Positions 13,301-61,525 of a stretch of DNA of 64,000 nucleotides are shown one piece after another. The position numbers and the translations under genes are program-made. Source of the DNA: Nematopogon swammerdamellus (lineage: Eukaryota > Arthropoda > Insecta > Lepidoptera > Adelidae); contig OX336358.1 in NCBI GenBank assembly GCA_946902875.1, positions 15,245,694-15,309,693 on the forward strand, given 5' to 3'. The stretch's first letter is position 1. Each line of letters begins with the position of its first letter. The notes below the pieces were generated by a model that saw only the letters and a list, made by a program, of their open reading frames with translations, made no database searches and was not told where the DNA came from.

Positions 13301-16300
13301 TAGGACAAATCGATTGCCGTAAGAATCATCAAAATCGGCCCACGCGTTTGGTCTCTAGCGTGCCACAAAGGAACAAACATACATACATACATACATACAT
13401 AGGCTGATAAACACATTACCCTCCTTTGCGTCGCGCAGTCGGGTAAAAAGGATATTATCTTCATAAATTCACCTTATTTTAATAGTTACAACAACTCTCA
13501 GATAAGTAATTGATCAATAAGAATGAAGCTGCACAAATAATTTTGAGTATTTTTTTTTAATATTGGTTACCCTGCGGACAACCCCTTTTTTCCATACAAA
13601 TCTGGGGACAAAATTGTCCCCTGGGTCATCCCTAAAAAATTGGTGATTTTTTTTATTTTAAATAGTTCTCTACTTTTTTTTCAATTGTCTGTAAACCTTA
13701 TTATTTTATACTTATTGATTTTCAACTAAGTAATAAATTGAAATAAAAAATTTTTTTATTTAACTGTGCAGCTGGTTTTTACATTACAAGAAAAAGTTGA
13801 TCCACCGATTTACCGCTTGGGGCCGGTACTTAAAAATAATAGCCCCACTGAATCTCTCCCCGTGCACGTAGTAAAAGGCGACTAAGTGATAAGGACAAGG
13901 TGCCGCGCTAAAGGGCGACATGCTATCCAGTTCTCACCATGGCACGGTCCTTCCAACGGGTCATGTAGCAGATGGGTCTTCGTGCCTTACTTGCTGCTTG
14001 ATAGTTATCTTGTGCGATCGTATTGAAATAAATACCAATTTTGAACAATTTACAATAATTGTCAAAAATAAAAAATTTAATTTAAAAATTTACTTTTTTA
14101 ATTTTTAAGTATTGCTAGGTATACTAAAACACAAAAACCATTTTATCTACTCACACTGTAAGATAAAGACGACTCGTAACTCGCCTAACGGGAAATAAAA
14201 AAAGTAATATATACCAAATTTTTCACTTTTTTTCAAAAAATAAAAAAAACATCCCCAGATGATTAGTAAAGTAAAGTAAAGATCCCCAGTCAATCTACAA
14301 TATAAAACTAGAAAAGTTTAAAATATATATTATTTAGAAATATGTTTAAAAGTGCCCTTTTTAAACCCTCTAAAAAACGGCTATTTTAAGCGGTCTTTTG
14401 AGATTTTCTCAAAAACCTCAATCTTTTTTTAATCATTTTTAACCCTTTTTAAATTATTTTTTCCTCCATCTTGTGAATACGCGTTATTTGACACCCTATA
14501 TATTCACAGAGCCTTAAAACTCACGATACCAGGGCGAATTCGCGCTCTCGCTGGAAATTGAGGACTATACTGAAGCGATCGAAAAGACATTTTCAATGTC
14601 AAAAAAAACCGCATGAAAATCGGTCCACTTTTTAAGATAAAAATTTGTTTTATTGCTTAATTACTTGATCACTTGATTACAAACATAGCTAAGAACCATC
14701 CCGATTAAACAAGCTTCCTAATAAAAAAAACCGCATCCAAATCGGTCCATCCGTTTGGGAGCTACGATGCCACAGACTGACACACACACACACACGTCAA
14801 ACTTATAACACCCCTCCGTTTTTTTCGTCGGGGGTTAAAAATAATAATAATATTGGCACAATCTGATTGCAGCCCGCGGTAAGATCAAGAAATACGCCCC
14901 ACTCCTGGCCGGGCTCGGCGTGAAGGCTGTAGCGGTGATCGGCCTGCTGTTCGGAGGCCTCACGCTCCTCGTGACGAAAGCTCTGGTGGTGGCCAAGTTA
15001 GCCTTCGTGGCCGCCGCCGCGCTCGGACTGCAGAAACTGATCAGCGGAGGGACCTTGGGGTCATTTGGTGGAAAGGTGAGTATTTTTTTGAAAATTAATA
15101 ATATGGCAGGTCGCATTTAGGTCATAATATTTATCAAGCGGCGGGTGGCCGAGTGGTTTGGGCGTCGGCTTCTCATGCGAGAGTCCGAGGCTCGAACCCA
15201 ATCGGCGTTTACCAATGAGTTTTTTTTTACGAAAAAATTTACGTGCATACCTACACCTGCTGCTTCACCGTTCGGAACCAGTGTGAAACTGTAGGTACCT
15301 TCCCTTGCCCCTCACTTGGTGGTAGGCTCAATAATTGTAGCCGACTGGGTTGGTATCACCGTATTGGATGTAAGATGGCCGCATAGCAGCCTCGGCTGTG
15401 TTCTCCTCTAGCATACCCAGCAATCCAGGGCAGTCTCCGGTATGGCACCTACCTTCTCGGAGGTTATATTGGCTGGTCGGAGCATGTGCTTTGGCCCTTC
15501 CGACTCAGCCGCCGGATGCATGCCGGATTACATATAAAATAATAAAAAATATATATCCATATATTAGCGGTACAAAATGAATGCCATACCAAAGACTTCC
15601 CTTTTTGCATTGCTATGCGGCCATCTTACATCCAGTACGGTGGTACCAACCCAGTCGGCTACAATTAGAGCCTACCACCTAGTAAGGGGCAAGGGAAGGG
15701 ACCTACAGTTTTACACCGGTTCCGAACGGTGAAGCAGCAGGTGTAGGTATGCACGTAAATATTTCCGTCAGAAAAATCTCCTTGGTGGTCACCCGAATTC
15801 GAACCTCGGACCTCTATCAAAAGAAGCCTACGCCCAGACCACTCGTCCACCCGTCGCTTAGATGTTTTTTTTTTATGAATACGCGAGACTTCATAAAAAA
15901 AACTTGGCCCCGCCGCCGTCGTCGCGTCAGCATGGATTGTTTAGCCGACATAAATTATTTTACGTTTTAAGGCCGCTTTTTGTCACTTCTTGTATTGTGC
16001 TTATATAAAGAATATTTTTATTTCATTTCACACATACCACACGCTGTATCCCGCCAATCTGGGTAAGCAGAGTAGTCGGTGTTGTGCTGCAAGAGCAGCA
16101 CCGACCACCACGTTAAGCAAAGTCTTAGAACAAGATAACTGTCAAGCAGCAAGTTAGGCACGAAGACCCACCTGCTACATCAGTGGAAGGGCCGTGGCAA
16201 GGTATGAGGTGGCTAACCTGTCGCCCTTATGCACAGCATCTTGTCTACTAGCCACCTCTCACGTTGGCACGGTCCTTCCGCCAAGTATAATTGTAGCAGG

Positions 16301-17046: not shown

Positions 17047-17922
17047 GTTATACAGGGTGTTTCAGGATATGCTTTTTTTATGTAAACCAGCATGGGTGGC
17101 TGTGCCTAGGGATCAATGGTGCAGTCGACAGAGCCAAGATCAGCTCTGCTCGTGAAACCACGCTCAGTTAGGTGCCATGCCAGCAGATTTGCGGACTGTT
17201 GCTAGGCTGTCTAGCCCGTTAATACGACGCTTGAAGACACCCAGGTTAAAGGATTCAGTAAATACACTCGCCGGAAGACAGTTCCACACTCTAGCGGTGC
17301 GACAAACGAACGATTTAGAGAACCGATGGGTTCTCAAAAGCCCAATGTCAACAACAAAAGGGTGCTGAGTCTCTCTGCGACGAGTCATGCGGAGATAGGA
17401 CGGGTGGCAGGGAATAAGGGATGCTAGTTCCTTGCTTGCATGCTTGAGAAACTTCGGGAATAGAAAGTACTCATTATTAGAATAAAAAAATTCCTCATCA
17501 CTCAAATCGAAATTCCGTTTTTTTTTTTTGTCATACAAAAATGGAAAATTGTAATAAAAACTCGATGGACAGTGAGTAGATATAGGGAGATTTGGCAATA
17601 GTGCTGTCCAGGTTTAGGGAGTGCAATGACCTAGTTCAGTCCCCTTGTTCTTTTGATGTCATTCAAAGTAAAGTGTTTGGAATTTACCTCGGAATTTACC
17701 TACATGCACTTTAATTCTACTAGTTAAAGCATCTAAGTTAGTCACTTTTTTATTATTTAAGGCGGATGTTAACCGTCCACCAAATCTCGATGAAACAATT
17801 TTCACCAAAAAGTACTATAAAATTACCGAATCTGGGAAAAAGTTTCAGAGCTTTTCGTCTTCAAAGATGGACCCCTTTCGAACCCTGAAGTTACGAAACC
17901 CTATCCTGAAACAGCCTGTATA
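17047..17922. mobile_element. TIR fragment pair enclosing a LINE tail
   Basis: TACAGGGTGTTTCAGGATATG on the left is mirrored by CCTATCCTGAAACAGCCTGTA on the right (about 17 of 20). A LINE-X tail fills most of the interior. It is probably a small DNA element hit by the LINE. Confidence 0.45.
17072..17600 (-). pseudogene. LINE-X 3' coding end (jockey/CR1-like)
   Basis: On the minus strand a 144-codon frame (17598-17164) ends with HPFVVDIGLLRTHRFSKSF, CRTARVWNCLPASVF and FNLGVFKRRINGL. The pattern R.ARLWN.LP..vF....L..FK is the usual C-terminus of jockey/CR1-group ORF2. The 3' untranslated end reads GGCTGTGCC...CCCATGCTGGTTTACATA plus poly(A). RT and endonuclease domains are missing, so it is a 5'-truncated insertion. 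Confidence 0.65.
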
Positions 17923-18097: not shown

Positions 18098-18615
18098 AAC
18101 ATACATACATACATACATACATACATACATGCATACATACATACATACATACATACATACATACATACATACATACATACATAAATACATACATACATAC
18201 AAACATACATACATACATACATACATACATGCATACATACATACATACATACATACATACATACATACATGCATACATGCATACATACATACATACATAC
18301 ATACATACATACATACATGCATACATGCATACATACATACATACATACATACATACATACATACATACATACATACATACATACATACATACATAAATAA
18401 ATACATACATACATACATACATACATACATACATACATACATACATACATACATACATGCATACATACATACATACATACATACATACATACATACATAC
18501 ATACATACATACATACATACATACATACATACATACATACATACATACATACATACATACATACATACATAAATACATACATACATACATACATACATAA
18601 ATACATACATATGTA
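18098..18615. repeat. (ACAT)n tetranucleotide array, about 520 bp
   Basis: It consists of about 130 units with rare GCAT, AAAT and AAAC variants. Open frames in it (YVCM and HTYI repeats) are artefacts of the repeat. The right flank CATTACCCTCCTTTTTAAAT resembles the CATTACCCTCCTTTGCG terminus of the RT-bearing element, which also has an (ACAT)n beside it, so the array may have grown from such an end. Confidence 0.9.
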
Positions 18616-18619
18616 AATA

Positions 18620-20095
18620 CATAAACTCGAAATCATTACCCTCCTTTTTAAATCTGGTAAAAATATTACACTTCAATCAATACTGCAGTCTTTTTATGGC
18701 TTTTCGCTGGGTTTACCATGTGACGAATATATTTTCATTCGCCAAACGAAAGGGTTCTACATTCAAAAAGAGTTGCTAGTGTCCAAGGCTCCGCTCGGGT
18801 TAAGGATACAGTATTGTTACATAGTCTATCTCATATGCATGCCTACCTCATGTAAACCGAGTGAGCAGTTCTCAAGTTACAAGCGAATATACAGACGGCA
18901 AAAGGTGCGTTTTATAAAATGTATTATAATATTTTGGGATGATAAAAGTGTACGAATTATTTTTGGAATTATTTGTTTAATTTTTCTCAAAATTTTCCAA
19001 TGTTTAATACATGAGTTGAAATTTTAAATATTGTTATGTTACTTTTGAACGAATAAAAAAACAAGAGTTTAGATGCTTCGCGTAGCCATAAGCTTTAATT
19101 ATTTATTTATTTTATTTATTTTAAGTAAATATGCTGAAGAATGGTGCCTATATTATTTAATAGAGTCATTAATGTTAATTGATTCTCAAAATGTTTAGGG
19201 TTTTTTTTAGAAATAAGAACATGAAATAATATTGTGTTTTCTAAATTATTAAATTATTTATTGGTTAGTTGGATTTTGTACAAATAAAACATTTGGGATA
19301 TAACCAGGGTAAAGGTATTTATACGTTATATGTTTAAATTTCGTTAAGAAAATTATGGGACATGAAATGAAGGGAAGCACTGACATGGCACCTAGTTCAC
19401 CCTGTGTTATGGGCTGACATCACGGATGTTGTAGGTGATGTAGCCAACCGTGTCAGGTTCCATAAAAAAAAAAAAAAAAAAAAAAATTATTTTTCTATTT
19501 TTTTAAACAAATGTACTTGTACGTGGCCATTTATGTTCAATATACACAACAAATTATACGGGTTATATTTTCTTCACAAGAAAATAATATATTATTTTAA
19601 ACCTAAAAGACTGTATTATTATTATTAAGAATTAGAGTTGTATGTTACAAAAGCTTAAGTATTGCTAATTTAAAAATGAATTATGTTTTGGTAAATAAAA
19701 TTTTGTAAACATGTATTTATATTTTTTATTTTTACGATTTTCTTAACGAACAAGATCGCACAGAAACCAGAACCTACAACAGTACCGAAACGAATAATTT
19801 TAGAAATATCGAAACGAATTGTATAAATACTTTTGCATAAAAATATTAAAAATAAAGATATAGAAACGGTTTCTCTGGCCTACTATAGTGTGTTACATAG
19901 GATTTGCTGGGCCGACTATATTCTATTCGAACACAAACCAGTAACGCCATCTAGCACTTATTTATAGTACTGCCTTCGATGACTAACGCATAGTATTTTC
20001 GTACACAACCATAGATAATTTATCGTTCGCAAACGTTCGCAAAGGAATTTTTAATTTGCTATTTTAAAACTGATGGTCAAAATTTTCTACCTATG
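18620..20095. other. A/T-rich stretch with a SINE tail
   Basis: Apart from 19370-19485 no gene or confidently assignable repeat was seen. Confidence 0.4.
19370..19485 (+). mobile_element. SINE-A/C tail, 5'-truncated
   Basis: It holds only AAGCACTGACATGGCACCTA through GCCAACCGTGTCAGGTTCCAT plus a long poly(A). Confidence 0.7.
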
Positions 20096-40790: not shown

Positions 40791-42120
40791 TAAACGAATC
40801 GTGTTTATTAGTCAGGCACATAAAGATACATATAGACACATTACAGATTACATTTTTAAATTGTTTAAGTTATCACACATTGTTTGTCAGGTTAATATAA
40901 CAGGTTTACATTTTATGTTATTTAATATAGGTTTATTATAAAAATAATATAAAAAATTTAGAATCAAACTCTATGTTTAAATCGGCTGCCAAAATATACT
41001 TCTTGAATAATTAGAACTTGTCAATATTTGAGAATGATTTACCTACTTGTCTTGAGTTCTATGTGTATGTCTGTCTGTCCGTCTGTCTTCGGAATATTTA
41101 TAACATTATCTAACATTGTATATTGTACCTACAATAATTTTATTTTATTAATAGTTTAAACTTTCTATTTTTATACTTATAATGTATAGAATCTGTATAG
41201 TAACTGCATAAATTTACCTATAATATAAGCGAATGTTATAACGTTCTTTGAGATCAATAAAGATTCTTTAAACTGAGGTTTTATTTTTTACCCGACTGCG
41301 CGACGCAAAGGAGGGTAATGTGTTTATCAGCCTATGTATGTATGTATGTATGTATGTTTGTTCCTTTGTGGCACGCTAGAGACCAAACGCGTGGGCCGAT
41401 TTTGATGATTCTTACGGCAATCGATTTGTCTTAATCTTGCGAGTGTCACTAAAGACATGACAGTAATCAAAATTCAATATGGCGACAACTAGGTGCCATA
41501 TTGTGAAAAAGAAAAAAATGAAAGTTGACTAACTATGTTAAGTGGGGTATCGTTGAATAGGTATTTGAAAATCATCTTTAGGTTTCTCTTAGCATTTTTC
41601 ATTTCGAATGACCTTTTAGAATCTATAACGATTTAAATTTGGTTAGCAACCATTCTCACTTAACTTATAATAGTTATAATAGAGCTGTGATAAAAGTTCT
41701 TATTATACAGGATGTTCGGCACATCGACCGAAATTTTTTTTTAGGTAAGTGGGGTCATTTGCATCGTTTCGACCGGTACCTTTTGTCAGATATCACGTGG
41801 TATCAAGATACGATTTTTTTTGTTTATTTTTGAAAATTACAAAAATCCCAGTATTAAACCCTTGTAACTTTTTTGTTTATGACTGTATCAGCACGAAATA
41901 TTTTATTGGATTTAACAATGTATCGTTCTTCTAGAAAAAATATCATTTGATGAATTTAATACCATGAAAAGGACTTATGACCTCCCAAAGTCCCGAGAAC
42001 GAGTAAAAATATGACAGAATCTTAATTTCTTAATTCATTTAAAAAAAACTGACAGCAATTTAGAGCTTCATTTTCTTTTAAAAAGTTTGCTAGTTTACGT
42101 CCTTTCCGACGGTATACCAC

Positions 42121-43024
42121 TTGCTGACTGAATGTCTGAGAGATGCAAGGAAGAATGAGAGACAATTAACTGCCACGTGGTTAGACTTTGAAATCGCCTT
42201 CGGTTCGGTGCGCCATGAGTTACTATTAATGGCTCTAGAATGGTATAATGTGCCACCTCTGATCTGTAATATAATAGCCTCCTACTACAAAAAACTTTCA
42301 TTTGTAATACAAGTAAAAGGTGAAACGGAGAAGACACCGGAAATTCGTTACGGCATAGGACTTTTCCAGGGTTGCTGCCTCTCTCCTGTCACATTTAACA
42401 TTGTTATCAACATTGTAATTGATACGCTTGTCGTGAAAGAAAACAAATGGGGATACAGGTTCAAATATGGAGACACATATATGACGGCTATCCTGGCATT
42501 TGCGGATGATATTACGCTGTTAACCCGCAATCCAAAACAAAATCAGGCGAAATCAAAATCTTAAGGTGGTAGATGACTATTGTGAATGGACCAAAGGGAT
42601 GAAGATAAAACCAGCGAAGTGCTACTGTTTGAGCTTAACCAGGAAAGGTTAAAAGTTTACCTCGAGCAAGCCAGGTCTGACAGTAGCCGGAAAAGCAATC
42701 GCAACCGTGGCTGATGAAGCCCCTTTTAAATTCTTGGGAAAAAGGATCACAAGCAGAGGAAAAGAGCATCCTACTGATGATATTGTCCAACTTTTCGAAG
42801 AGAGCCTGCGCCAAACTGACAATCTTCCCCTCCTGGGTACACAAAAGGCATGGATCAACGATAACTATCTGACATCAAAACTTTCATGGCCATTTCTCGT
42901 CTACGACTTCACAAAGCCAAACCTGACTAAATTAGACTCTTATGTTACCAGATTCCTGAAGTCATGGTTTGGACTGGCTCACCCGGCTGACTCGTCAACG
43001 CTGTACCCGGTGATCCCACAATAA
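42121..43024 (+). pseudogene. reverse transcriptase remains, copy 2
   Basis: The 147-codon frame (42121-42564) is residue-identical to copy 1, with motif A (WLDFEIAFGSV), motif B (FQGCCLSPVTFN) and FADD. A second frame at 42707-43024 differs at two residues (IND for IYD, KPN for KQN). An in-frame TGA precedes the first ATG, and the upstream fingers region is degenerate. RTs of this look (ALEWY.VP, GVFQGC.LSP) occur in LINEs with a restriction-like endonuclease. Confidence 0.7.
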
Positions 43025-43473
43025 CTTTGGACTGAACATTAAGAAACCGTCGATATTTTATCAAAAGGCGAGAATAGCCAAACGATGTATACTCAAAGAC
43101 TACAATGATGCTATTCAAGCCTTAGCCAACAACTCAGATGAACTGGAATCGAGACTCGACTTCTACAAATCATTCCAAGTTGGTACACGCACCAATAGAT
43201 CTGGACTCGGCATAGAAACAGCAAAGTCTTATAAAGAAATAGGTTTTGCTCAGGAGGACATGGAACAAGATTTCAAACTTCACGCCTTAAACCTAGAAAT
43301 GCAGAATGATTGGCTAACAGGTGGGCGACTTCTGCATCCCTCCTGCATTGAAGTGGAAATCCATAATATACAACTGGTCCCCTGAGCTGCTTAAGTTCTA
43401 ACTAAATGCATTCCAGCTTACTCTCGCCGACCCGAGTAACCTAGTTAGATGGGGGAAATCTACAAATTGACTA

Positions 43474-44371
43474 TGCCCGTCATGTAAGGAGTCCGTAGGC
43501 ACGGCCAAACATATGTTATGCGGATGCAAAATACTACTTGAGCGAGGCCAGTATTCCTACCGTCATGATAAAGTCCTCCAAATCATCAGAGAGGCCATCA
43601 ACCTCTCAATTGCACGGACCAGGAAAGGGCAAACTAGTAGCGCCTTCCAGAAGGTCAACTTTGTGAAATCTGGAGCCAAAAAGCTGCCCAAAGATACGAC
43701 TAAACCTTCAATTTTGGGAGCAGCGAAGGATTGAGAATTGTTGATGGACACACATGAGAAGCATTACCAGATGCCTTCGGAAATCTGTACCACAGCATTA
43801 AGACCGGATATACTCATATTCTCAAAAGTGACAAAGCATGTAGTACTTGTTGACTTTGTGAAACCTGGAGCCAAAAAGCTGCCCAAAGATTCGACTAAAC
43901 CTTCAATTTTGGGAGCAGCAAAGGATTGGGAATTGTTGATGGACACACATGAGAAGCATTACCAGATGCCTTCGGAAATCTGTACCACAGCATTAAGACC
44001 GGATATACTCATATTCTCAAAAGTGACAAAGCATGTAGTACTTGTTGAACTTACAGTTCCATGGGAAAGCAACATACCGAAGGAACACAACATCAAACTT
44101 AAAACACAACATCAAACTTAACAAGTACTGCAACTTAGTAGACCGGATTGTGAGAAACGGATTCAAGACTGATCACTTCGCTGTGGAAGTCGGAGCAAGA
44201 GGACTACCAGCGAAGTCGCTCTACAGTCTCTTCAAGAATCTAGGGCTGCCAAGATCGACGCTAAGCTCATACATGGAGAGAGCTTCGAAAACGTCACTGG
44301 AAGCATCCTACAGAATATGGATAGGTAGAGAGAGAGGTCGAGAGCGGGACTGGTGTTTCCCCGGGTCCTAG
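43474..44371 (+). pseudogene. CCHC plus restriction-like endonuclease region, copy 2
   Basis: It has CPSCKESVGTAKHMLCGC at 43474, then SILGAAKDWELLMDTHEKHY, RPDILIFS and VELTVPWE, and VEVGARGLPAKSLYSLFKNL. The 195-bp duplication (ATGGACACAC at 43744 and 43939) repeats the PD part but only the second repeat runs on into the E.T part. A stop (GATTGA, 43730) breaks the first repeat in this copy only. Confidence 0.6.
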
Positions 44372-44780
44372 TCAACACAGACTAGCTGACGAAGGCTTGA
44401 TGCGAGCCGAATCCTGAAGCATGCGCGGGAAAGTTAGAGTGGCCACTCGCTAGTCCCGACCTCGATTAACACCCTCCTCTACTGCCGATGAGCCCGGATA
44501 TGTTCGGTGAAGCCATCGCAAGCTTAGTTCCACACCTTCCTGTAATGCAAATAATTCACTATGTGGCCAAAATTAGGGACAGAGACCAGAATAGAAGGAC
44601 AACACGGGCACTTTGTTACAGGGCCACTTACTTATTTAGGTATTTAGACCACCGCAAGCTACTTAATAATCCCCACGATATTAACTCCCTCAATGAAATG
44701 ACAAGTTCGCAAAATTTACCGTCATATAATCCTAACTAAAAAGTGTAAAATAAAAAAAGTTTATTTAAAAAATAAAAAAA

Positions 44781-45163
44781 CCCGACTGCGTAAAAAAATA
44801 ACTTTCAATAAAAACTGAAAAGAAAAAAACAAGTCCAGTAGTCTAGAACTCTGATGTAATATTGAATAACTACACCATTGAAATAGTTTCATGATCGATA
44901 CACAAATATAAAACCAATAATAAACTCTAATGCGGAACATAGCGACTTTAACAGTCGGGACCCATTATTGGGAAAATTTTAATGGGTCCCGACTCTATGT
45001 TCTCTATGTTCCGCATTAGAGTTTATTATTGGTTTTATATTTGTGTATCGATCATGAAACTATTTCAATGGTGTAGTTATTCAATATTACATCAGAGTTC
45101 TAGACTACTGGACTTGTTTTTTTCTTTTCAGTTTTTATTGAAAGTTATTTTTTTACGCAGTCG
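44781..45163. repeat. 186-bp-arm palindrome ending copy 2
   Basis: Arms 44781-44966 and 44981-45163 flank a 14-base loop in the same orientation relative to the element as in copy 1. A few arm differences near the loop (GACTCTATGTTCTC) are private to this copy. Confidence 0.85.
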
Positions 45164-45424
45164 GGTTTTTTTATTTTTTAATTTTATAATATGCTTCCCA
45201 TTTCTCACTTATTGCTCCTGGAAAACAGAAACAAACGTGCACTGCTTAATACTTAATTCGTCCCTTCTAGACTGTAACAGTTGCCGCAATTCCACGGTCT
45301 GCTACTCCATCCATCACGTGTTATTGAAAGTTCATTACAAAAATTTAATTACAATAAATCAAAGAACCCAATAACCAATCACTTTCAAGCGAGAGTAATT
45401 AAAACTTCATACAAGCGAACGCCT

Positions 45425-45638: not shown

Positions 45639-45814
45639 GTTCCATGTGTGATGTATTTCTTGAGAGAGGTGTTATTGTGTACGGTTAATTGTAATCTTTT
45701 TTTTTATTGACATAATAATATTATGACATGAATACTGCCATTTATGCCTGTTTAGAATTTTAGAACGTGTAGGGTCACTCAGTCTGTTCAGCAGGTACTA
45801 TCATGGACGCTGCT

Positions 45815-46168
45815 CGGAGGAACTTGCTTCCTTATTCCTTGCCATCCAACCTATCTTCGCAGCACTCGCCGCAGAGAGACTAACCAACCTTTTGTTGTTG
45901 ACATTGGGCTTTTGAGAACCCATCGTTTCTTTGTCGCACCGCTAGCGTGTGGAACTGTCTCCCGGCGAGTGTGTTTCCCGAATCCTTTAACCTGGGTGTC
46001 TTCAAACGTCGTATCAACGGGCTGGACAGCCTAGCAACAGTCCGCAAATCTGCTGGCATGGCGCCTTACTGAACGTGGGTGGTTTCGCGAGGAGGGGGGT
46101 TTTTGGCTCTGTCGACTGTACCATTGGTCCCTCGACAAAGCCACCCATGTTGGTTTAGATAAAAAAAA
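45815..46168 (+). pseudogene. LINE-X 3' end
   Basis: It encodes FVVDIGLLRTHRF, LCRTASVWNCLPASVFPESF and NLGVFKRRINGLDSLATVRK and ends GGCGCCTTACTGA with a 3' tail CCACCCATGTTGGTTTAGAT plus poly(A). A 9-base loss after CATCGT removes a few residues compared with the copy at 17072. Confidence 0.6.
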
Positions 46169-46734
46169 GAACCTAACTGAGCCTTTATAAGCTAGAGTGA
46201 GAATGCTATCTATAATTGAAAACTCGAGCGAAGACAAAACGCTACAAATGAGTGCGTCTGCGCACTAGCGAGAGAATGGCTTAACCAATGTCCGTAGTAT
46301 GCAGTAAGAAGCATTAAAACGCTATGTATATTAAGAATATTAATAACCAAAAAATACACAAAAATATATCAAGTCTCTTCACTACATTCAGTACACTTTT
46401 TTATGTAAACCGGGTGGCTGTGCCGAGAGACCAACGGTGCAGTCGACAGAGCCAAAACCACCTTTGCTCCCGAAACCACGCTCAGTTAGGTCACAGCATA
46501 TATATGGCTAAAGCAGTATGGAAACTAGGCCTATTTGTTAAAATAAGTACCTACGCTCCATTGGAGCGTTAGGGATGTCAATCAAATTTTTTTGTAAAAT
46601 TGTAAAATTATTATTTATTAAAACATTTATTTAGGTTCTGTAATGTAATGATCAAATAATCAATATAATCAATCATCAATAATAAGTTAACAACGTGGTT
46701 GCTATAAATATGAATTGATATAACTTTTCTCGAC

Positions 46735-47839
46735 TTTTGTCAACTTTTATTAACTTTGTAAATTGTTTACAACTTTTGTCAGCTGTCGTCAACCATTGTA
46801 AATGTTTGTCAACTTTTCTCATCTTTTACCAATTTCAGTCATCTTTTGTCAACTTTTATCGACTGTTGTCAAGTCTTGTCAATGTGTGTCAACCTTGGTA
46901 AACTTTTGTGAGCTTTCGTCAACATTTGTCAACTTTTGTCATCTTTTGTCAACTTTCATCGACTGTTGTCAACTCTTGTCAATGTTTGTCAACCTTGGTC
47001 AACTTTTGTCAACTTTCGTCAACATTTGTCATCTTTTGTCATCTTTTGTCAACTTTTATCGACTGTTGTCAACTCTTGTCAATCTTTGTCAACCTTGGTT
47101 ACTTTTGTCAACTTTCGTCAACATTTGTCGACTTTTGTCATCTTTTGTCAACGTTTGTCAACTTTTGTCTATTTTTCTCGATTTTTGTGAAATTATAGCC
47201 ATTTTCGTTCTCTTTTATCAACTTTTCTCATCTTTTGCCAACTTCTGTCACCTTTTGTGAACTTTTATCGACTGTTGTCAACTCTTGTCAAGTTTTGTAA
47301 ACTTTTGAGAACTTTTATCAACTCTCGGCACCTTATGTCAACTTATGTCAACTCTTGTCAACTTTTGTCAACATTTGTCAACTTTTGTCAACTTTTGTCA
47401 ACTTTTGTCAACTTTCGTCAACGTTTGTCTACTTTTATGGCTTTTGTCGACTTTTGTTAACTTATAGCCACTTTCGTCATCTTTTGTCAATTTTTGCCGA
47501 CTTCTATCAGCTTTTGTAAAATTTTAACGACTGTTGTCAACTTTCGGAAATTTTTGTCAACTTTTGCCAACTTCTGTCACTTTTATGAACTTAGGCCAGC
47601 TTCCGTCAACTTTTCTCAACTTTCGTCATCTTTTGTCAACTTTTACTAACTTCTGTCAACTTTTAACCACTATTGTCAACTTCTTTTATGGACTTTTGTC
47701 AGCTTTCGTGAACTTTTGTCAACTCTTGTCAACGTTTGTCAACTTTCGTCAACTATTGTTAATTAATGTCAACTAAGTATTGTCAACTTTTTTCATATTT
47801 TGTCTACGTTTGTCAACTTATGTCAGCTGTTTGTCAACT
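46735..47839 (+). repeat. left arm, (GTCAACTTTT)n minisatellite
   Basis: It has about 110 units of 10 bp in almost unbroken phase, with variants (GTCAACTTTC, GTCATCTTTT, ATCGACTGTT) arranged in higher-order blocks, e.g. ATCGACTGTTGTCAACTCTT recurring. Because 10 is not a multiple of 3, every frame reads the same decapeptide cycle (VNFCQLLSTF), so the open frames here are not genes. Confidence 0.9.
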
Positions 47840-49065
47840 TGTTGACAACAGTGGTTAAAATATGATAAAAGCTGACAAAAGCTGAGAGAAGTTGGCAAAA
47901 GTTGACAAAATGTTGACGAAAGTTGACTAAGGTTGACAAACAACCACAAGAGTTGACAACAGTCGATAAAAGTTGACAAAGATGACAAATGTTGACGAAA
48001 GTTGACAAAAGTTGACCAAGGTTAGGTTGACATTGACACGAGTTGACAACAGTCGATAAAAGTTGACACAGGTCGATAAAAGTTGACAAAAGATGACAAA
48101 AGTAGACAAAAGCGGACGAAGGTTAACAAACATTGACAAGAGTTGACAACAGTCGATAAAAGTTGACAAAAGATGACAAAAGTTGACAAATGTTGACGAA
48201 AGTTGACAAAAGTTGACCAAGGTTGACAAACATTGACAACAGTCGATAAAAGTTGACAAAAGATGACAAAAGTTGACAAATATTGACGAAAGTTGACAAA
48301 GGTTGACAAACATTGACAAGAGTTGACAGCAGTCGATAAAAGTTGACAAAAGGTGACAGAAGTTGGCAAAATATAAGAAAAGTTGACAAAAGTTGACAAG
48401 AGTTGACATAAGTTACCGAGAGTTGGCAAAAGTTTTCAAAAGTTTACAAAACTTGACAACAGTCGATAAAAGTTGACAAAAGGTGACAGAAGTTGGCAAA
48501 AGATGAGAAAAGTTGACAAAAGTTGACAAGAGTTGACATAAGTTACCGACAGTTGACAAAAGTTCTCAAAAGTGTACAAACTTGACAAGAGTTGACAACA
48601 GTCGATAAAAGTTAACAAAAGGTGACAGAAGTTGGCAAAAGATAAGAAAAGTTGACAAAAGTTGACAAGAGTTGACATAAGTTACCGAGAGTTGGCAAAA
48701 GTTCTCAAAAGTTTACAAAACTTGACAAGAGTTGACAACAATCGATAAAAGTTGACAAAAGGTGACAGAAGTTGGCAAAAGATGAGAAAAGTTGACAAAA
48801 GTTGACAAGAGTTGACAGAAGTTACCGAGAGTTGACAAAAGTTCTCAAAAGTTTACAAAACTTGACAAGAGTTGACAACAGTCGATAAAAGTTGACAAAA
48901 GGTGACAGAAGTTGGCAAAAGATAAGAAAAGTTTACAAGAGCTGACAACTGCAGTCGATAAAACTTGACAAAATGTGACAGAAGTTGGCAAAAGATGAGA
49001 AAAGTTGACAAAAGTTGTCAACATTTGTCAAAAGTTAATATAAAGTGACAACAGTCGAAAAACGA
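47840..49065 (-). repeat. right arm, inverted minisatellite
   Basis: It holds AAAAGTTGAC units, the reverse complement of the left arm, from the dyad TGTCAACTTGTTGACA (47832-47847). Blocks of about 140 bp recur (AGTCGATAAA at 48331, 48461, 48600, 48740, 48880). The same block types (ACCAAGGTTGAC..., TTACCGAGAGTTGG...) occur in both arms, so they are homologous arms and not just inverted monomers. Confidence 0.9.
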
Positions 49066-49504
49066 TTGTAAACATTTTTTTGCATTCTAAAAGATCGCGG
49101 ACTGTCCGTGGTGCATGCAACAAAAACAAACACGACCACTCGGACGCGGCACCCGCGACTGATTGTTTGCGACATTCGCTTCGGGGCCTTGTTGAGGCGT
49201 GCGTGTGTGTGAGTGCGTCGTTTCGATCGTTTTGTACGTAGTTTCCATACTGCTTTAGCCATATATATGCTGTGGTTAGGTGCCATTCCGGCAAATTTGC
49301 GGACTGTTTCAAGGCTGTGTAGCCTGTTATTACGACGTATGAAGGCACCCAGTTTAAAGTATTCGTGAAACACACTCGCCGGAAGACAGTTCCGAACTGT
49401 CTTCCGTGAAGAAACTATTTAAGAACCGATGGGTTCTGAAAAGCCCAATGTCAACAACAAAAGGGTGCTGAGTCTCTCTGCGTCGAGTATTTTTTATTAT
49501 ATTT

Positions 49505-52870: not shown

Positions 52871-53306
52871 TGTGGCACTTTAGCTACTATATGCGAGTGT
52901 CCTATGTAGGGTGTTAGTGTTAAGGTCCAAATGAAACACTATGATAGCTGTGTATAAACGTGTAATAAAACGACTGAGAATTATTATTGACTCAAAGCGA
53001 CTATACTTGACTCCGTGGTGTGATCGACTGCCAGGGCGGCGGGCCGAGGCGAGCGCGGACGCACGCCGCGCCAGAGGGGCGCGGGGTGCGATAACCGCGT
53101 CGCATCGGACCGATGTGTCTAGCTGTGTATAAACGTGTAATAAAACGACTGAGAATTATTATTGACTCAAAGCGACTATACTTGACTCCGTGGTGTGATC
53201 GACTGCCAGGGCGGCGGGCCGAGGCGAGCGCGGACGCACGCCGCGCCAGAGGGGCGCGGGGTGCGATAACCGCGTCGCATCGGACCGATGTGTCGTGTCC
53301 GGCACA
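52871..53306 (-). repeat. 3' LTR, 436 bp, with 175-bp tandem duplication
   Basis: It equals the 261-bp 5' LTR except that the block from TAGCTGTGTATAAACG (52945) to GATGTGTC is repeated at once (53120), adding exactly 175 bp. The two repeat units look identical. Confidence 0.9.
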
Positions 53307-53322
53307 TCAATTTCCCCCTTTA
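53307..53322 (-). promoter_or_regulatory. polypurine tract
   Basis: The minus strand reads AAAGGGGGAAATTGA directly before the 3' LTR, the expected plus-strand primer. Confidence 0.75.
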
Positions 53323-54868
53323 TGAAAAAAATTTTGTCATTACAACATTACCAAAATTACCTTTAATTACGAATCGTTCATTACTTGTGACAGTTATCTG
53401 CTTTTATACGACTGCCTCCACTTACTACAAATATAGAAAACATTATAAAGACGAGATATAAACACGATGAGAAAGATAAAAACATTTCAATAACATACAG
53501 GGTGCCAGGAACCACAGAAATGATGGCGTACAAAAGAGACACTTGAAAAATTTGAAGAGGTGCAATAAAACTATCCTAACAATGACCCTAGATGATTGTG
53601 CTCACCAATGCGGTCGTAAAAACCGCTGAGGCGAGAGTCCTTTTGTTTTGCAAAGAGAGAGACCGCCAATAATTTCACACACAAGTATGACTAAGCTTAA
53701 TACCTATTACATAACACAATCGTAGATAGGCATAGGCAAAGATTTGAGAACACGTACCATTAAAATTTACACTAACTTCTATATTTCTACACTAACTTTT
53801 AACTAATTCGAAGTACTAACTAACACAGAATGGGGTGTAAATTTACACAAAATCAATATACCATACCGCTGTATGAAAATAATTGTGTAAAATATAATAC
53901 ATTTCTTCTATAATTTACTTATTACTTTAAGATGCATGCATACTACGATTATTAATTAAGTAAAAGTAATGAGTAAGTGTATTATGAAAAATCGACATTG
54001 CGATCAGGCAAAACTACAAGCGTTGGGCATGGAGTTTTGTGCGTAACCTTCCGTTGTCGTAAAATTCTTTACATCTCTCGGCGTAAGTGCTTTACGCCCG
54101 TGTGTACGAACGAGGTTTATTGTTTGAACGAGAATGCATTTGATGAAACGTGCGTTATTATAAGTTATAGTTATAACTACGTACGATCTTGCGATATTTG
54201 TGTCTAATCTTACAAATTAAACATTATACAATAAATTAAAACTATTAAATGTTCAAATTAAACTACAAACTATTCAGTGTATCTTGGAACAGCAGGTATT
54301 AGCGCTATTGTTATAAAATATAAGTGATGCGAATGAAATGATACTCTAACAAGTTGACGGATCTGTCGTAGATTTCCTTGACGGATGTTAAACGACGGGT
54401 TTTCCAACATTTGTATGCTTCCTAATACAACTCACAAAACGTTATTGCGATTTCTAAGATTGATTGCGGCTTTGTTAAAACTAATACATGCACATTTATC
54501 ACTTTCAAATAGATTATGTGACACAAAGAAAGTTTAAATTGAACTCATTTTAAGCAACATATTATTAACATAACTATAATCACGACATAAAAGTAAGAAG
54601 TATAAAGTAAATAGCGTAATATTAGTCCTTTCATAATGTTTCTGGTGCAAGCAATAAACAGTTCGAGTATCATTATTGTTTGTAATAGTTTTATGGTAAT
54701 TTTTTTTGTCCACACCATTGCACTTTGTTTGGATGGGGCTTAGCGCCTCAGATACACCTGTTATTTGTTTATTTCACTGCACTTTCACTATTTTTATGGT
54801 TGACAGACAAACCGGGACGCTGACCGGCACTCAGCTGGTCGTCGATATGGGTGAGAATGAAACGAAAG
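53323..54868 (-). other. 1.5-kb non-coding 3' region of the LTR element
   Basis: Between the pol stop and the polypurine tract there is no frame above about 90 codons in the element's sense. It is unusually long for an element without a third gene. It is A/T-rich, unlike pol, and no envelope-like coding was recognised. Confidence 0.6.
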
Positions 54869-57800
54869 TTATTGGTCTGCAAAACGAACAGTTTTTTTAC
54901 ATATTCTACCGAACTTAGACACGTGATATGGTATTGTAGTGTCTGTCTCACTTGAATTATGGGTAGGAGATGTGGGACTAGGCTTCGTTGTAGGTACTTG
55001 GGCGGAGTCGGCAGGTGCGTCGCGTGAACCGTTTCTTTCATCGTTGGGTAAGAAAGCCGGTTTCAGCCTGTCCAATGTTATTGCGACTTCCCTGTTAGGA
55101 AGTTTTACTATAAAATATTTGTCTTTCTTTTTTATTACCGGGAACGGTCCTTCGTAAGGTGGTGTGAGAGGTCGTGTCACGCGATCACACCTGACGAACA
55201 CGTGTGTGCACCTACTTAGTTCCGGATGCACAAAAACTGACGTCTGCCTAGCTTCGCGCTTAGGTACAGAAGCTATTTTGCTTATGTGTTGGCGAAGTTT
55301 GTCCACATAGCTCTCGTCGACGGTGTACGATGTTGGTGAAGGTTCGAAAAACTCTCCCGGCAGTCTAATAGTGGTTCCATAAACCATTTCAGCTGCGCTG
55401 ATTGATGTGTCGTCTCGAAGAGCTGCTCTCAGACCATATAAAACTGATGGTAATTCTTCTGCCCAGTTCTCGCTGTTTGATCGGGCCATTAATGCTGCTT
55501 TCATACTTCGGTGAAAATTTTCGATAAGGCCGTTCGATTGCGGGTGATAGCTGGTTGTCCTGATTTTTTTAATACCCATGCACTTCGCGAGGTTCTGAAA
55601 CAGCTCTGCCTCGAAGTTACGTCCTTGATCTGTGGAAATTCGTAGGGGGCAGCCGAAACGGACAATCCAGTGCTCGTAGACAACCCTCGCGACAGTTTCT
55701 GCCGACATGTCGCTGACGGGGATTGCCTCTGGCCAATTTGTTGCTCGGTCCTCGATCGTCACTACGTAGCGGTATCCATTTGAAGGCATGAGTGGACCAA
55801 CCATGTCCACATTCAGGTGCTGAAACCGATCACTTGGTTCATACTTCCCAAATGGCGACTTTGTATGCCGTGATACCTTCGACTTCTGGCATGGTAGGCA
55901 CGACTTTGTCCACTCCTTGACGTCGTTCAGCATGCCAGGCCAAAAGAATTTCTCCTTCATCAGCCTGCGCGTTCCTCTTACGCCTGGATGTGAAATACCA
56001 TGTATGGTCGTGAAGGCTTGATGGTGAAAGTTCTTCGTGAGGTACGGCCTTGTCTTTCCGCCGGTCGTGTCACAATAAACATTCAATTTGATGGCCGGAA
56101 TCTGAACTAATCGAAGAGTTGAGTTTTCTCGTGAAAGAAGTTCCTTCAACTCTCCGTCTGATTGTTGTGCCTGTGCTAGCTTCTCATAGTCTATTGCGCT
56201 GGGGCATCCTATCTCTTCGATTCTCGATAAAAAATCGGCGACTGGGTTAACTTCACCAGACACGTGCACTATAGATGATACAAATTGCGAAATGTAATCT
56301 AATTGACGGATTCTTCTCGGCGTGTCGTTGGTGGTCGCATTCTTTTTGAAAGCGAACGTCAAAGGTTTATGATCGCAGTATACTTTGACATTCGAGCCCT
56401 CGATAAACCTTCGGAAGTGTTTCACCGCTAAGTAAATACCTAGCAGCTCTCTATCATAGGTAGAGTATTTTCTCTGTGTCTCATTAAGCGTCTTACTGAA
56501 AAAACCTAACGGCTCTTGTCCCTTTTCTGTGCGCTGGTTTAGCACTGCTCCTACGCTTACGTCGCTGGCGTCGGTCATTATAGAGATCTCGGCGTCCACG
56601 GCGGGGTGTGCGAGCATGCACGCACTCTTAATGCTTTCCTTGCATTTCTCAAATGCGGCAATCGCGTCCGGTGTCCATTCGATGATTGTCTTGTCACGTT
56701 TTTTTGCGCCCACTAAATATTTGTTAAGTACAGCTTGATGTGTCGCCGCATCTGGTGTGCTCTCTCTGTAGAAGTTTATTGCTCCTAGAAAGCGTCTCAG
56801 CTCGTGAATAGTGACCGGTTTTTTGTAGTTGGCGATGGCTTCGACCTTTTCAGGTAGCGGGCGAATTCCCTCGGGTGACACCAAATAGCCGAGATATGTT
56901 ATTAACGGCTTGTTAAATTCAGATTTTTGCGTATTGATGGTAATTCCGTGAGCATCGAGTCGTTGTAGCACGTTTCGAAGAAGTTTGTTGTGCGATTCTT
57001 GGTCTTCGGATGCGATCAGAATGTCATCTACATACGAAAATACACAATCTAGACCTTGCAGCACTGCGTTGAGAAATCGGCAAAACGTCATTCCGGCGTT
57101 ACGGAGTCCAAAACATGTGCGTGTATACTCGTACAGGCCGAATGGCGTTGTTATAGCGGTCTTCGGGATGTCTTGTTCGCGAACTGGAATTTGGTGGTAA
57201 GCATTGTTGAGGTCGATCTTGGAAAATATTTTCTTTCCGTGCAGCATGTACGTGAAATCTAAAAGCCTTGGCATAGGATAGGCGTCAGGGATAGTGTTAG
57301 CATTTAACTTACGGTAGTCTCCGACAATTCTGATTCCACCACACTTTTTATCTACCACATGTAGCGGCGAAGACCAAGGACTTTTGCTGGTTTGTATAAT
57401 ACCGAGTTCGAGCATTGTCTCGATTTCCTGTTTAACTTTTTTGTACTTGTCCGGAGCAAGGGGTCTAGGTCGGCAGTGAACGGGGGGGCCTTTTGTCTCA
57501 ATATAGTGCTCGACGCTGTGTTTTATGGCTTCCTTTCCGAAAACGGACGGCTTTGTTACGTTGGGGAAGGAGGCTATTATCTCACCAAATGGGTCGCCGG
57601 CGCAGACGGTTTTTATTGTCGGTTGATCGGACGATATTGCTGTAGTTTTCACGTGGAGTTCCGTTGTACCATCGATTAGACGTCGATTCCTCAGATCCAC
57701 GAGCAGGTTATGATACTCCAAGAAATCTGCGCCTATTATAGGCATCCGCACGTTCGCCTCCACGAAACTCCATTTGTATGGCCTTCTTAGTCCGAGATCG

Positions 57801-58051
57801 AGAGTTAGTGACTTCTCACCGTATGTGGTTATCGCCGACCCGTTTGCCGCGTATAAAACATAATCCGAGGGTGAGCCTTTGTTCCTACTCAGTACCGAGA
57901 TGTCTGCTCTGGAGTCTATGAGAAAATTTATGCCCGAGTTGCGGTCGGTTATATAAAGGCGTTTGGAATTTTCCAATGTGCAGACCTCCGCCTTAGGCTG
58001 CACTGCGTCTAGTTTTCCGATTGCATTTTCGTCTGGTCCTTCCACGCGCAT
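54869..58051 (-). CDS. pol: pol polyprotein: protease, RT, RNase H, integrase
   Basis: The frame has 1060 codons from the first in-frame ATG, but translation most likely enters by a -1 shift from gag (overlap 58009-58051). Protease: LIDSRAD at residues 44-50 and IIGAD near 105-109. RT: about 190-390 with YVDD at 340-343. RNase H: TDAS 493-496, YDREL 532-536, VADFLSR 604-610. Integrase: H684/H688, C718/C721 and D749, D808, E844 with the D-x35-E spacing, then a GPF-type module near 985 and a basic end (TVRFADQ). All catalytic residues are kept except that the protease triad is Asp-Ser-Arg where Asp-Ser/Thr-Gly is the rule. No internal stop or frameshift exists. Confidence 0.92.
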   Translation of the reverse strand: MRVEGPDENAIGKLDAVQPKAEVCTLENSKRLYITDRNSGINFLIDSRADISVLSRNKGSPSDYVLYAANGSAITTYGEKSLTLDLGLRRPYKWSFVEANVRMPIIGADFLEYHNLLVDLRNRRLIDGTTELHVKTTAISSDQPTIKTVCAGDPFGEIIASFPNVTKPSVFGKEAIKHSVEHYIETKGPPVHCRPRPLAPDKYKKVKQEIETMLELGIIQTSKSPWSSPLHVVDKKCGGIRIVGDYRKLNANTIPDAYPMPRLLDFTYMLHGKKIFSKIDLNNAYHQIPVREQDIPKTAITTPFGLYEYTRTCFGLRNAGMTFCRFLNAVLQGLDCVFSYVDDILIASEDQESHNKLLRNVLQRLDAHGITINTQKSEFNKPLITYLGYLVSPEGIRPLPEKVEAIANYKKPVTIHELRRFLGAINFYRESTPDAATHQAVLNKYLVGAKKRDKTIIEWTPDAIAAFEKCKESIKSACMLAHPAVDAEISIMTDASDVSVGAVLNQRTEKGQEPLGFFSKTLNETQRKYSTYDRELLGIYLAVKHFRRFIEGSNVKVYCDHKPLTFAFKKNATTNDTPRRIRQLDYISQFVSSIVHVSGEVNPVADFLSRIEEIGCPSAIDYEKLAQAQQSDGELKELLSRENSTLRLVQIPAIKLNVYCDTTGGKTRPYLTKNFHHQAFTTIHGISHPGVRGTRRLMKEKFFWPGMLNDVKEWTKSCLPCQKSKVSRHTKSPFGKYEPSDRFQHLNVDMVGPLMPSNGYRYVVTIEDRATNWPEAIPVSDMSAETVARVVYEHWIVRFGCPLRISTDQGRNFEAELFQNLAKCMGIKKIRTTSYHPQSNGLIENFHRSMKAALMARSNSENWAEELPSVLYGLRAALRDDTSISAAEMVYGTTIRLPGEFFEPSPTSYTVDESYVDKLRQHISKIASVPKREARQTSVFVHPELSRCTHVFVRCDRVTRPLTPPYEGPFPVIKKKDKYFIVKLPNREVAITLDRLKPAFLPNDERNGSRDAPADSAQVPTTKPSPTSPTHNSSETDTTIPYHVSKFGRICKKTVRFADQ

Positions 58052-58884
58052 GGCTGCTCACATTTTTTGGCCTTCTCGCGGAATGTATGGTGGTACCAGC
58101 ATAGCCAGCCGGCCTTCTGTTCCGATGCACCTGTACGCGAGCTGGATCTGTACCTGTGTGCCGGTGTCCGCGAGCGGGGACGGTGCGGGCGTCGCTGTTG
58201 AGCCTGCTCATCGCGTATCGAGGCGATTTCGGCACACATGCGTGCCATTTGTGTGGCGAGAGCGGCGACTGACGCCTGCATTTCACATGACTGTGATGCG
58301 ACAGGTGCAGGTGCAAGTTCGTTCACCTGAGTGCAGCGTGTGTTTTCAAGGACGCTGTCTGCAATGACGGCTAGGTCTTCTAAACTCTCCTTGTCGCTTA
58401 CTGCCAGGACAGCGCGTACAGCCGTCGGGAGGTGACCGGCCCACAAGAATTTAAGGGCGTCGTCGCTCACCTTATCTCGTGCCAGGTCCCGCATACGTCG
58501 GAGGAGCTGCGACGGTCGTTGGTCACCCAACTGCATTTCTCCGAGCAGTTTTTGAAACTGCCGGAGTTCCGAGTCTGCATTTGCGGAGATTAGACGCGCT
58601 TTCAGCGCATCGTACCTGCGCTCTGGCGGAGGTGAGGTGAGCAGATCGCTCACCTGTTGCAGGTCGGGGAGCTGCAATTTTGCGATGACCGTCTGCCACC
58701 GTTGGTCGTCGCTAAGCCTCTGCGAAGCCGTGATGGCCTCAAACTGTATGAACCACAGTTTAGGTTGTTGCCGCCAAAACTCTGGAATGCGGCTTGACAC
58801 CGACAAAGCCGCCAATTCACCTGTCGCCCCACACGGTGTTGCATCTTGCGCCACTATGTGTGCATGCTCTCCGTCGTTACTCAT
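58009..58884 (-). CDS. gag: gag polyprotein with CHCC finger
   Basis: This frame of 291 codons starts MSNDGEHAHI. The stretch PEFWRQQPKLWFIQFEA begins a capsid-like region typical of the clade (F.PE...WF...E), and LLGEMQLGDQRPSQLLRRM follows. Near the C-terminus a basic Arg/Ser-rich segment precedes C262-x2-H265-x9-C275-x3-C279, the CHCC finger of CsRn1-type Gag. The frame stops at TAG (58009-58011). The -1 frame opens after a TGA just upstream, leaving a shift window of about 50 bases. GGAAAAC directly before the TAG is a candidate slip site only. Confidence 0.88.
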   Translation of the reverse strand: MSNDGEHAHIVAQDATPCGATGELAALSVSSRIPEFWRQQPKLWFIQFEAITASQRLSDDQRWQTVIAKLQLPDLQQVSDLLTSPPPERRYDALKARLISANADSELRQFQKLLGEMQLGDQRPSQLLRRMRDLARDKVSDDALKFLWAGHLPTAVRAVLAVSDKESLEDLAVIADSVLENTRCTQVNELAPAPVASQSCEMQASVAALATQMARMCAEIASIRDEQAQQRRPHRPRSRTPAHRYRSSSRTGASEQKAGWLCWYHHTFREKAKKCEQPCAWKDQTKMQSEN

Positions 58885-58970
58885 GATTCCCAGTCTCTAC
58901 TCAAACTAAATGTCACTTAAAACACTGAATATCACTAAAACACTAGATGTCCACAATTAACTCGCGCGCG

Positions 58971-58991
58971 AATCACGTCGGTAGGTCACCA
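58971..58991 (-). promoter_or_regulatory. primer binding site, tRNA-Trp-like
   Basis: Two bases inside the 5' LTR the minus strand reads TGGTGACC-TA-CCGACGTGATT. Apart from the inserted TA this is what I expect from the 3' end of insect tRNA-Trp (CCGACGTGATT and TGGTGACC), the primer of CsRn1-clade elements. Confidence 0.65.
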
Positions 58992-58993
58992 AT

Positions 58994-59254
58994 TGTGGCA
59001 CTTTAGCTACTATATGCGAGTGTCCTATGTAGGGTGTTAGTGTTAAGGTCCAAATGAAACACTATGATAGCTGTGTATAAACGTGTAATAAAACGACTGA
59101 GAATTATTATTGACTCAAAGCGACTATACTTGACTCCGTGGTGTGATCGACTGCCAGGGCGGCGGGCCGAGGCGAGCGCGGACGCACGCCGCGCCAGAGG
59201 GGCGCGGGGTGCGATAACCGCGTCGCATCGGACCGATGTGTCGTGTCCGGCACA
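58994..59254 (-). repeat. 5' LTR, 261 bp
   Basis: On the minus strand it runs TGTGCCGGACACGACACATC ... GCTAAAGTGCCACA. The first half is very GC-rich and the second A/T-rich. It is the unduplicated reference for the 3' LTR. Confidence 0.9.
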
Positions 59255-59261
59255 TTAGCAA

Positions 59262-60984: not shown

Positions 60985-61525
60985 TTTCCTCCACAGAACC
61001 GGTAAACTCTGGAACGCTCTCCCCGCTCATATATTTCCGAAGTATATTTCCTCCCCAATACAATCTGGGGTCTTTCAAGAGGGGCGTGGATAGGCACCTG
61101 TCAGGCCGACATGGCATTCGCAACCCCCGCATGACAGCATCCCTTATTCCCTGCCACCCGTCCTATCTCCGCATGACTCGTCGCAGAGAGCCTCAGCATC
61201 CTTTTGTTGTTGACATTGGGCTTTTGAGAGCCCATCGGTTCTCCAAATCGTTTCTTTGTCGCACCGCTAGAGTGTGGAACTGTCTTCCGGCGAGTGTATT
61301 TCCTGGATCCTTTAACCTGGGTGTTTCTAGCAACAGTCCGCAAATCTGCTGGCATGGCACCTACTGAGCGTGGTTTCGCGAGGAGAGGTGATTTTGGCTC
61401 TGTCGACTGCACCATTGGTCTCTCGGCACAGCCACCCATGCTGGTTTACATAAAAAAAATTATAATAATGCGACCGAATGTCCATGGGCGTCGTTAGACA
61501 CCTTATCGGAGCCACAGGTCGCGCC
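60985..61525 (+). pseudogene. LINE-Y 3' end split by LINE-X
   Basis: GKLWNALPAHIFPKYISSPI-like coding (with an 18-base internal duplication) runs to 61133 and the 3' part resumes at 61468 with GCGACCGAATGTCCATGGGC, as in the unbroken tail at 40715. Confidence 0.65.
61134..61467 (+). pseudogene. LINE-X 3' end nested in LINE-Y
   Basis: It encodes SLIPCHPSYLRMTRRREPQH, PFVVDIGLLRAHRFSKSFLC and RTARVWNCLPASVFPGSFNL. A deletion then removes FKRRINGLDS. It ends CCACCCATGCTGGTTTACAT plus poly(A). ATG flanks both sides. Confidence 0.65.

Follow-up and report, generated by a model that had tools for sequence, protein, structure and literature searches.

A recently active family of non-autonomous transposons with internal, opposite-facing minisatellite arrays in a moth genome, probably mobilised by a P-superfamily transposase

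Two long arrays of a 10-bp repeat, facing in opposite directions, lie in a 64,000-nucleotide stretch of DNA from the moth Nematopogon swammerdamellus (the window), and they raise the question of whether such a structure arose in place or was carried there, and if so by what kind of transposase. The first-pass annotation of this DNA had proposed a recently moved Foldback- or Galileo-like transposon, perhaps driven by a P-superfamily transposase encoded elsewhere. We find that the arrays belong to a recently active family of non-autonomous cut-and-paste DNA transposons whose inverted minisatellite is Foldback-like but internal. The features of the locus are as follows, in window positions.

46397..46491, minus strand: LINE-X 3' region, left of the insertion (BLAST to 17074-17173 and joined-flank alignment)
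46485..46491, unstranded: left target-site duplication GTTAGGT (present once in the LINE-X paralogue around 17060-17445)
46492..46527, plus strand: left 36-bp terminal inverted repeat, TIR (exact match at both ends; 574 exact copies genome-wide)
46528..46721, plus strand: left subterminal region (0-3 differences from consensus across 21 copies)
46722..47846, plus strand: left array with some 112 units of CTTTTGTCAA (chiefly type A higher-order repeats, 10 units each, toward the outside, followed by type B)
47841..49055, minus strand: right array, about 121 units in the opposite direction, the reverse complement of CTTTTGTCAA (chiefly type A toward the inside and type B, 14 units each, toward the outside)
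49056..49238, minus strand: right subterminal region, G+C-richer (0-13 differences from consensus across 21 copies, TIR included)
49239..49274, minus strand: right 36-bp TIR (exact inverted match to the left end)
49275..49281, unstranded: right target-site duplication GTTAGGT (directly outside the right end)
49275..49488, minus strand: LINE-X, right of the insertion (BLAST to 17167-17385 and joined-flank alignment)
17073..17432, minus strand: LINE-X paralogue without the element, a paralogous empty site (BLAST and joined-flank alignment)

The element spans 2783 bp (46492-49274), and the perfect TIRs and 7-bp duplication described in the first-pass annotation are both present. The terminal sequence CACAGCATATATATGGCTAAAGCAGTATGGAAACTA is found without a mismatch at 46492-46527 (+) and 49239-49274 (-), against a mean of 0.00 matches in 100 shuffles, and GTTAGGT directly adjoins each end. 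Inverted homology between the two ends ceases at base 36, and the right subterminal region has no homology to the left one. The arrays, which TRF reports in opposite orientation at 46722-47849 (68% matches) and 47841-49055 (70% matches), start about 230 bp inside the ends. By eye, the left subterminal region holds the inverted repeat ACGCTCC-ATT-GGAGCGT; the right one, read inward, might be a Pol II promoter and 5' leader. The site of insertion is a LINE-X copy, and when the flanks are joined with one GTTAGGT they give continuous LINE-X sequence that aligns through the junction to three paralogues in the window, in agreement with the read-through noted earlier. GTTAGGT is exact at the junction in the paralogue near 17060-17445, whereas one base is missing at this position in the paralogue at 61120-61470 and two bases are changed in that at 45810-46180.

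The genome search suggested at the outset was made in the window's own genome (699 Mb, 39 contigs). Far from occurring only once, the exact 36-bp TIR is found at 574 places (285 forward, 289 reverse; control 0 and 0). In searches with the two subterminal regions, the best 40 of 709 and the best 40 of 700 candidates were scored, the window's own copy among them and the other first-look candidates left unscored, and all reached at least 98%. In the first 100 TIR positions of the list, which run from C1 into C4, 88 ends make up 44 elements with TIRs facing each other, 1695-6811 bp long (median 2861 bp), and 12 ends have no mate. Twenty copies were picked by similarity to the window's left end, and both TIRs are exact in 20/20. 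Identical 7-bp duplications flank 33/33 copies, a set made up of the window copy, these 20, the first ten further pairs on C1 and two long copies (L059 and L080). The target is palindromic with the consensus NYNNNRN; across 32 sites read on both strands, position 2 is a pyrimidine (equivalently, position 6 a purine) in 61/64 readings, and A or T stands three bases outside the duplication in 52/64.

Because three copies of 3036 bp on three contigs (L048, L053 and L054 on C28, C29 and C23) are identical, with 0 differences over their full length, movement of the family was recent, as had been supposed. Two 775-bp copies, L044 and L051 (C8 and C32), likewise have 0 differences, and the window copy and L039 on C1 disagree at 3 of 2783 aligned bases, besides two gaps of 16 and 5 bp. 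Across 21 copies, left ends have 0-3 differences from their consensus, and right ends have 0-13 differing columns, indels included. We found no transposase gene of the element's own in the 22 copies read, where the longest Met-to-stop frame is 76-254 codons and, in long copies, appears by eye to be repeat-derived. In its profile, the 4092-bp copy L080 differs by a longer right array only. The 6811-bp copy L059 was considered as an autonomous element and rejected as the partner of the family, since its 751-codon open frame belongs to a nested Transib. This frame matches the solved transposase 6pqn (E 2e-167), the Helicoverpa zea Transib, and lies in a 4695-bp insertion at L059:2115-6809 (C1, inside 17731457-17738267) with ends CACAGTGGGG and a 5-bp CGTCG duplication, at a point where the window copy reads uninterrupted GTGCGTCGTTTCGATCG at 49213. 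The 5-bp duplications and transposase of Transib are thus those of the nested insertion, which has its own ends, and not of the element.

Viral contigs gave 0 matches to patterns built on the TIR, the repeat and the left subterminal region, and prokaryote genomes 0 to a TIR pattern. No description of the family was found by title or abstract in literature outside subscription journals, and where letters of the repeat unit matched the texts of papers, all of the matches listed looked unrelated by title.

What, then, moves these copies? PF21787, which covers an RNase H portion of P-type transposases, has matches at 85 places in the window's own genome (control, 0 of 14 genomes). Many of these sit in open frames of 700-1034 codons, often several with equal scores, which suggests that this moth genome holds several P families with recent activity, and THAP-like exons are seen by eye upstream at two loci. 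However, 0 of at least 167 element places, merged from several match lists of the subterminal and TIR searches, fall within 17 kb of the 85 P-type places, the nearest among those listed being 17,869 bp away. Longer copies carrying a P-type transposase, predicted in the first-pass annotation, did not appear among these element places or the long copies fetched. A P family with an 821-codon frame (C14, C7) was rejected as partner, its three copies ceasing to match at (C)CAAAGAGTTTG, unlike the element TIR, as was a 975-codon family (L082) whose fetched 5' flank has no such end by eye.

Further information comes from what copies may have left behind. We looked for sites at which bases 1-16 of the end are kept and position 35 is not T, a pattern to which shorter remnants are invisible, and obtained 147 readings genome-wide and 0 in the control. 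Among the 100 readings listed are 41 complete end-to-end joins, 25 partial ones and 34 other continuations without trace of a second end, one of which is a TIR with a base change. The retained left end measures 16-24 bp in 99 of these 100, with none at 25-33 and chance matches included; the lower limit is set by the search pattern, whereas the upper limit of 24 is not. The commonest join keeps 16-17 bp of each end and accounts for 19 of the listed readings at 11 places by hand count, 4 of these places being a tandem cluster on C9. The counts include repeats, namely both strands of one palindromic scar, the C9 tandem cluster and a probable C2 segmental duplication. At C9:20590632-20590924, five joined-end remnants follow one another with a spacing of about 64 bp, a scar that has seemingly turned into a tandem repeat.

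These remnants are probably excision scars. The 5'-strand cut of P transposase lies 17 bp in from the tip, and this unusually long 17-nt stagger distinguishes P transposition, according to the excerpted text of PMC7776569. Because a long staggered cut of the P type would leave remnants of this kind, their length of 16-24 bp favours a P mobiliser, and the upper bound of 23-24 bp could reflect a longer stagger here, or microhomology.

We therefore consider it probable, at roughly 0.8, that the element is a non-autonomous cut-and-paste transposon mobilised in trans, its transposase being of the P superfamily (THAP/RNase H/GTP-binding) and encoded at another place in the moth genome. This part of the initial proposal is favoured by the 7-bp duplications, the 85 P-type places and the probable scars, although the coding partner itself was not found. 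Duplications of 7 or 8 bp are expected of the P superfamily, and all 33 copies have 7; copies that moved recently without coding capacity are expected of a non-autonomous element. The termini of the P element start with CA and its deletion derivatives are moved in trans. The ends of the moth element also start with CA (CACAGCAT...), a weak criterion, as other superfamilies too start in this way. Local P-family copies cease matching at (C)CAAAGAG, and zebrafish Pdre2 starts with CATACC (excerpt of PMC10983969). The P element further resembles the moth element in its short TIR (31 bp against 36), and its 17-nt stagger may be compared with the 16-24 bp remnants (excerpt of PMC7776569). It differs in making 8-bp duplications where the moth element makes 7-bp ones (excerpt of PMC10983969). 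Unlike P and 1360, the moth element has no coding partner among the places examined.

Under this P-superfamily reading, the enzyme would pair the element ends, cleave each 3' strand at the tip and each 5' strand about 17-23 nt further in, and insert the element into a palindromic TNNN-NYNNNRN-NNNA-like target with formation of the 7-bp duplication, while end joining at the donor site would leave scars with 16-24 bp of an end. The two 10-bp arrays would be passengers, growing and shrinking mostly by whole units, probably via slippage or unequal gap repair, and they may supply extra transposase-binding sites. The P element and 1360 are not known to carry minisatellite cargo. A more specific version, which we entertain only tentatively and with more doubt than belief, is that the P-type mover cuts the 5' strand about 23 nt inside the end, that dozens of natural scars in one genome record this cut, and that the arrays serve as a cargo of transposase-binding sites, able to expand, that increases mobility with no need for an autonomous relative of the same interior.

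Alternatively, this might be a non-autonomous element from hAT, Mutator/Foldback or some superfamily not yet described, which makes 7-bp duplications by coincidence. We regard this as unlikely, because the duplications are exactly 7 bp in 33/33 copies, whereas those of hAT are 8 bp and those of Mutator/Foldback 8-10 bp; the 8-bp duplications of hAT, once named as the outcome that would count against a P-type mover, were seen in 0/33. Remnants of 16-24 bp also misfit hAT and Mutator, whose excision footprints are a few bases. Nevertheless, three observations lean toward this alternative and against a P mobiliser: no transposase is tied to the ends among the at least 167 element places, the longest remnants, at 23-24 bp, go beyond the 17 nt known for Drosophila P, and the target letters differ from the ANAGT/ACTNT of P/1360 and the GTANTAC of Galileo, as given in the excerpted text of PMC4168063.

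The arrays themselves bear on a second alternative, that the element is a Foldback or Galileo member in the strict sense, with long repeat-filled inverted ends. Close relatives differ in length by steps of 10, 90, 100, 270 or 280 bp (79, 16 and 5 are among the exceptions), and in the series L054, L052, L057 and L050 all steps fall in the right array. Two higher-order repeats, A (10 units) and B (14 units), run through the arrays, and in 19 long copies the plus strand broadly has A before B in the left arm and a before b in the right, so that one arm is not simply the mirror image of the other. This order is partly broken in L047 and L046, and the 3036-bp group has one a mixed among the b repeats. 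The minisatellite is thus 'palindromic', as first described, in the direction of its units and broadly not in the order of its higher-order repeats. Arm-to-arm alignment was no better than the best of 60 block-shuffled controls in 8/8 copies tested, which leaves a mirror-palindrome origin of the arms unsupported, although 11/19 long copies (hand count) give it some room, since in them one type B marker lies beyond the A repeats of the left arm and the outermost order is B-then-A on both sides. The 775-bp copies lack both the left array and the turn, and because they have moved, neither the inverted arrangement nor the left array is necessary for transposition.

Strict membership in Foldback or Galileo is very unlikely, despite tandem arrays that face opposite ways, the shared outermost order just mentioned, and 7-bp duplications as in Galileo. 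Excerpts of PMC4168063, PMC3573991 and PMC3688188 describe Galileo, of the P superfamily in Drosophila, as having such duplications, abundant non-autonomous copies, tandem repeats inside some TIRs and a palindromic target. However, the repeats of Galileo are contained in long TIRs, while the TIR of the moth element is 36 bp with arrays internal, and the Galileo target is GTANTAC rather than NYNNNRN in these excerpts; GTAGTAC, the Galileo consensus of D. buzzatii, is matched exactly at 1/32 sites, that of L059. Foldback of D. melanogaster, Tm1 and Tetris share opposite-facing blocks of tandem repeats of variable number, but their repeats belong to long TIRs, and duplications are 9 bp in the Foldback-like Tm1 (excerpt of PMC3169594) and 8-10 bp in Tetris (excerpt of PMC4079207). 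Neither the repeat-filled inverted arms as termini nor the duplications of about 9 bp of Foldback sensu stricto are seen here. The element therefore works somewhat like a Galileo derivative but fails the defining features of both Galileo and Foldback, and the label first given to it has to be corrected. Lepidopteran MITEs with hitchhiking (GTCY)n microsatellites, reportedly described by Coates et al. in 2011 (as cited in PMC9659126), resemble the moth element as non-autonomous lepidopteran elements with tandem repeats and differ in the repeat.

Finally, although inverted arrays readily rearrange and are easily misassembled, a palindromic minisatellite that arose in place, or an assembly artefact, is hardly conceivable when the same ends and perfect 7-bp duplications recur at 33 sites, two opposite-facing arrays are present in 19 long copies and identical copies lie on different contigs, so that the mobility claimed initially stands.

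If the P assignment holds, this moth harbours a recently active, high-copy P-type family alongside many P-type transposase frames, and the probable scars would allow the position of a P-type cut to be read from natural sequence. The copies also offer a ready-made series in which to ask whether inverted repeat arrays favour or hamper transposition, and the hundreds of sites with opposite-facing arrays may give rise to ectopic recombination and small RNAs. T-tracts recur about every helix turn, because the autocorrelation of TTT at 10 bp is 0.47 in the left array, and the DNA there may be curved. In a separate observation, the end of zebrafish P-like Pdre2, GTTGACAGGTATG in the excerpt of PMC10983969, shares GTTGACA with the array unit GTTGACAAAA (46722-49055), seven bases that possibly agree by chance.

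Other repeats accompany the element in the window. A 3.9-kb inverted repeat (9554-13449 and 41285-45179) is 99.5% identical between its copies, each of which ends in a self-inverted 0.42-kb stretch and contains a 195-bp duplication, and an open reading frame within it (42094-42561) matches RVT_1. A probable LTR retrotransposon at 52871-59255 encodes RT, RNase H and integrase, with DUF7041 in an adjoining frame, and has two identical 249-bp stretches (52871-53119, 58994-59242), with a tandem duplication of 175 bp spanning 52945-53294. An ACAT microsatellite of about 131 units occupies 18099-18623.
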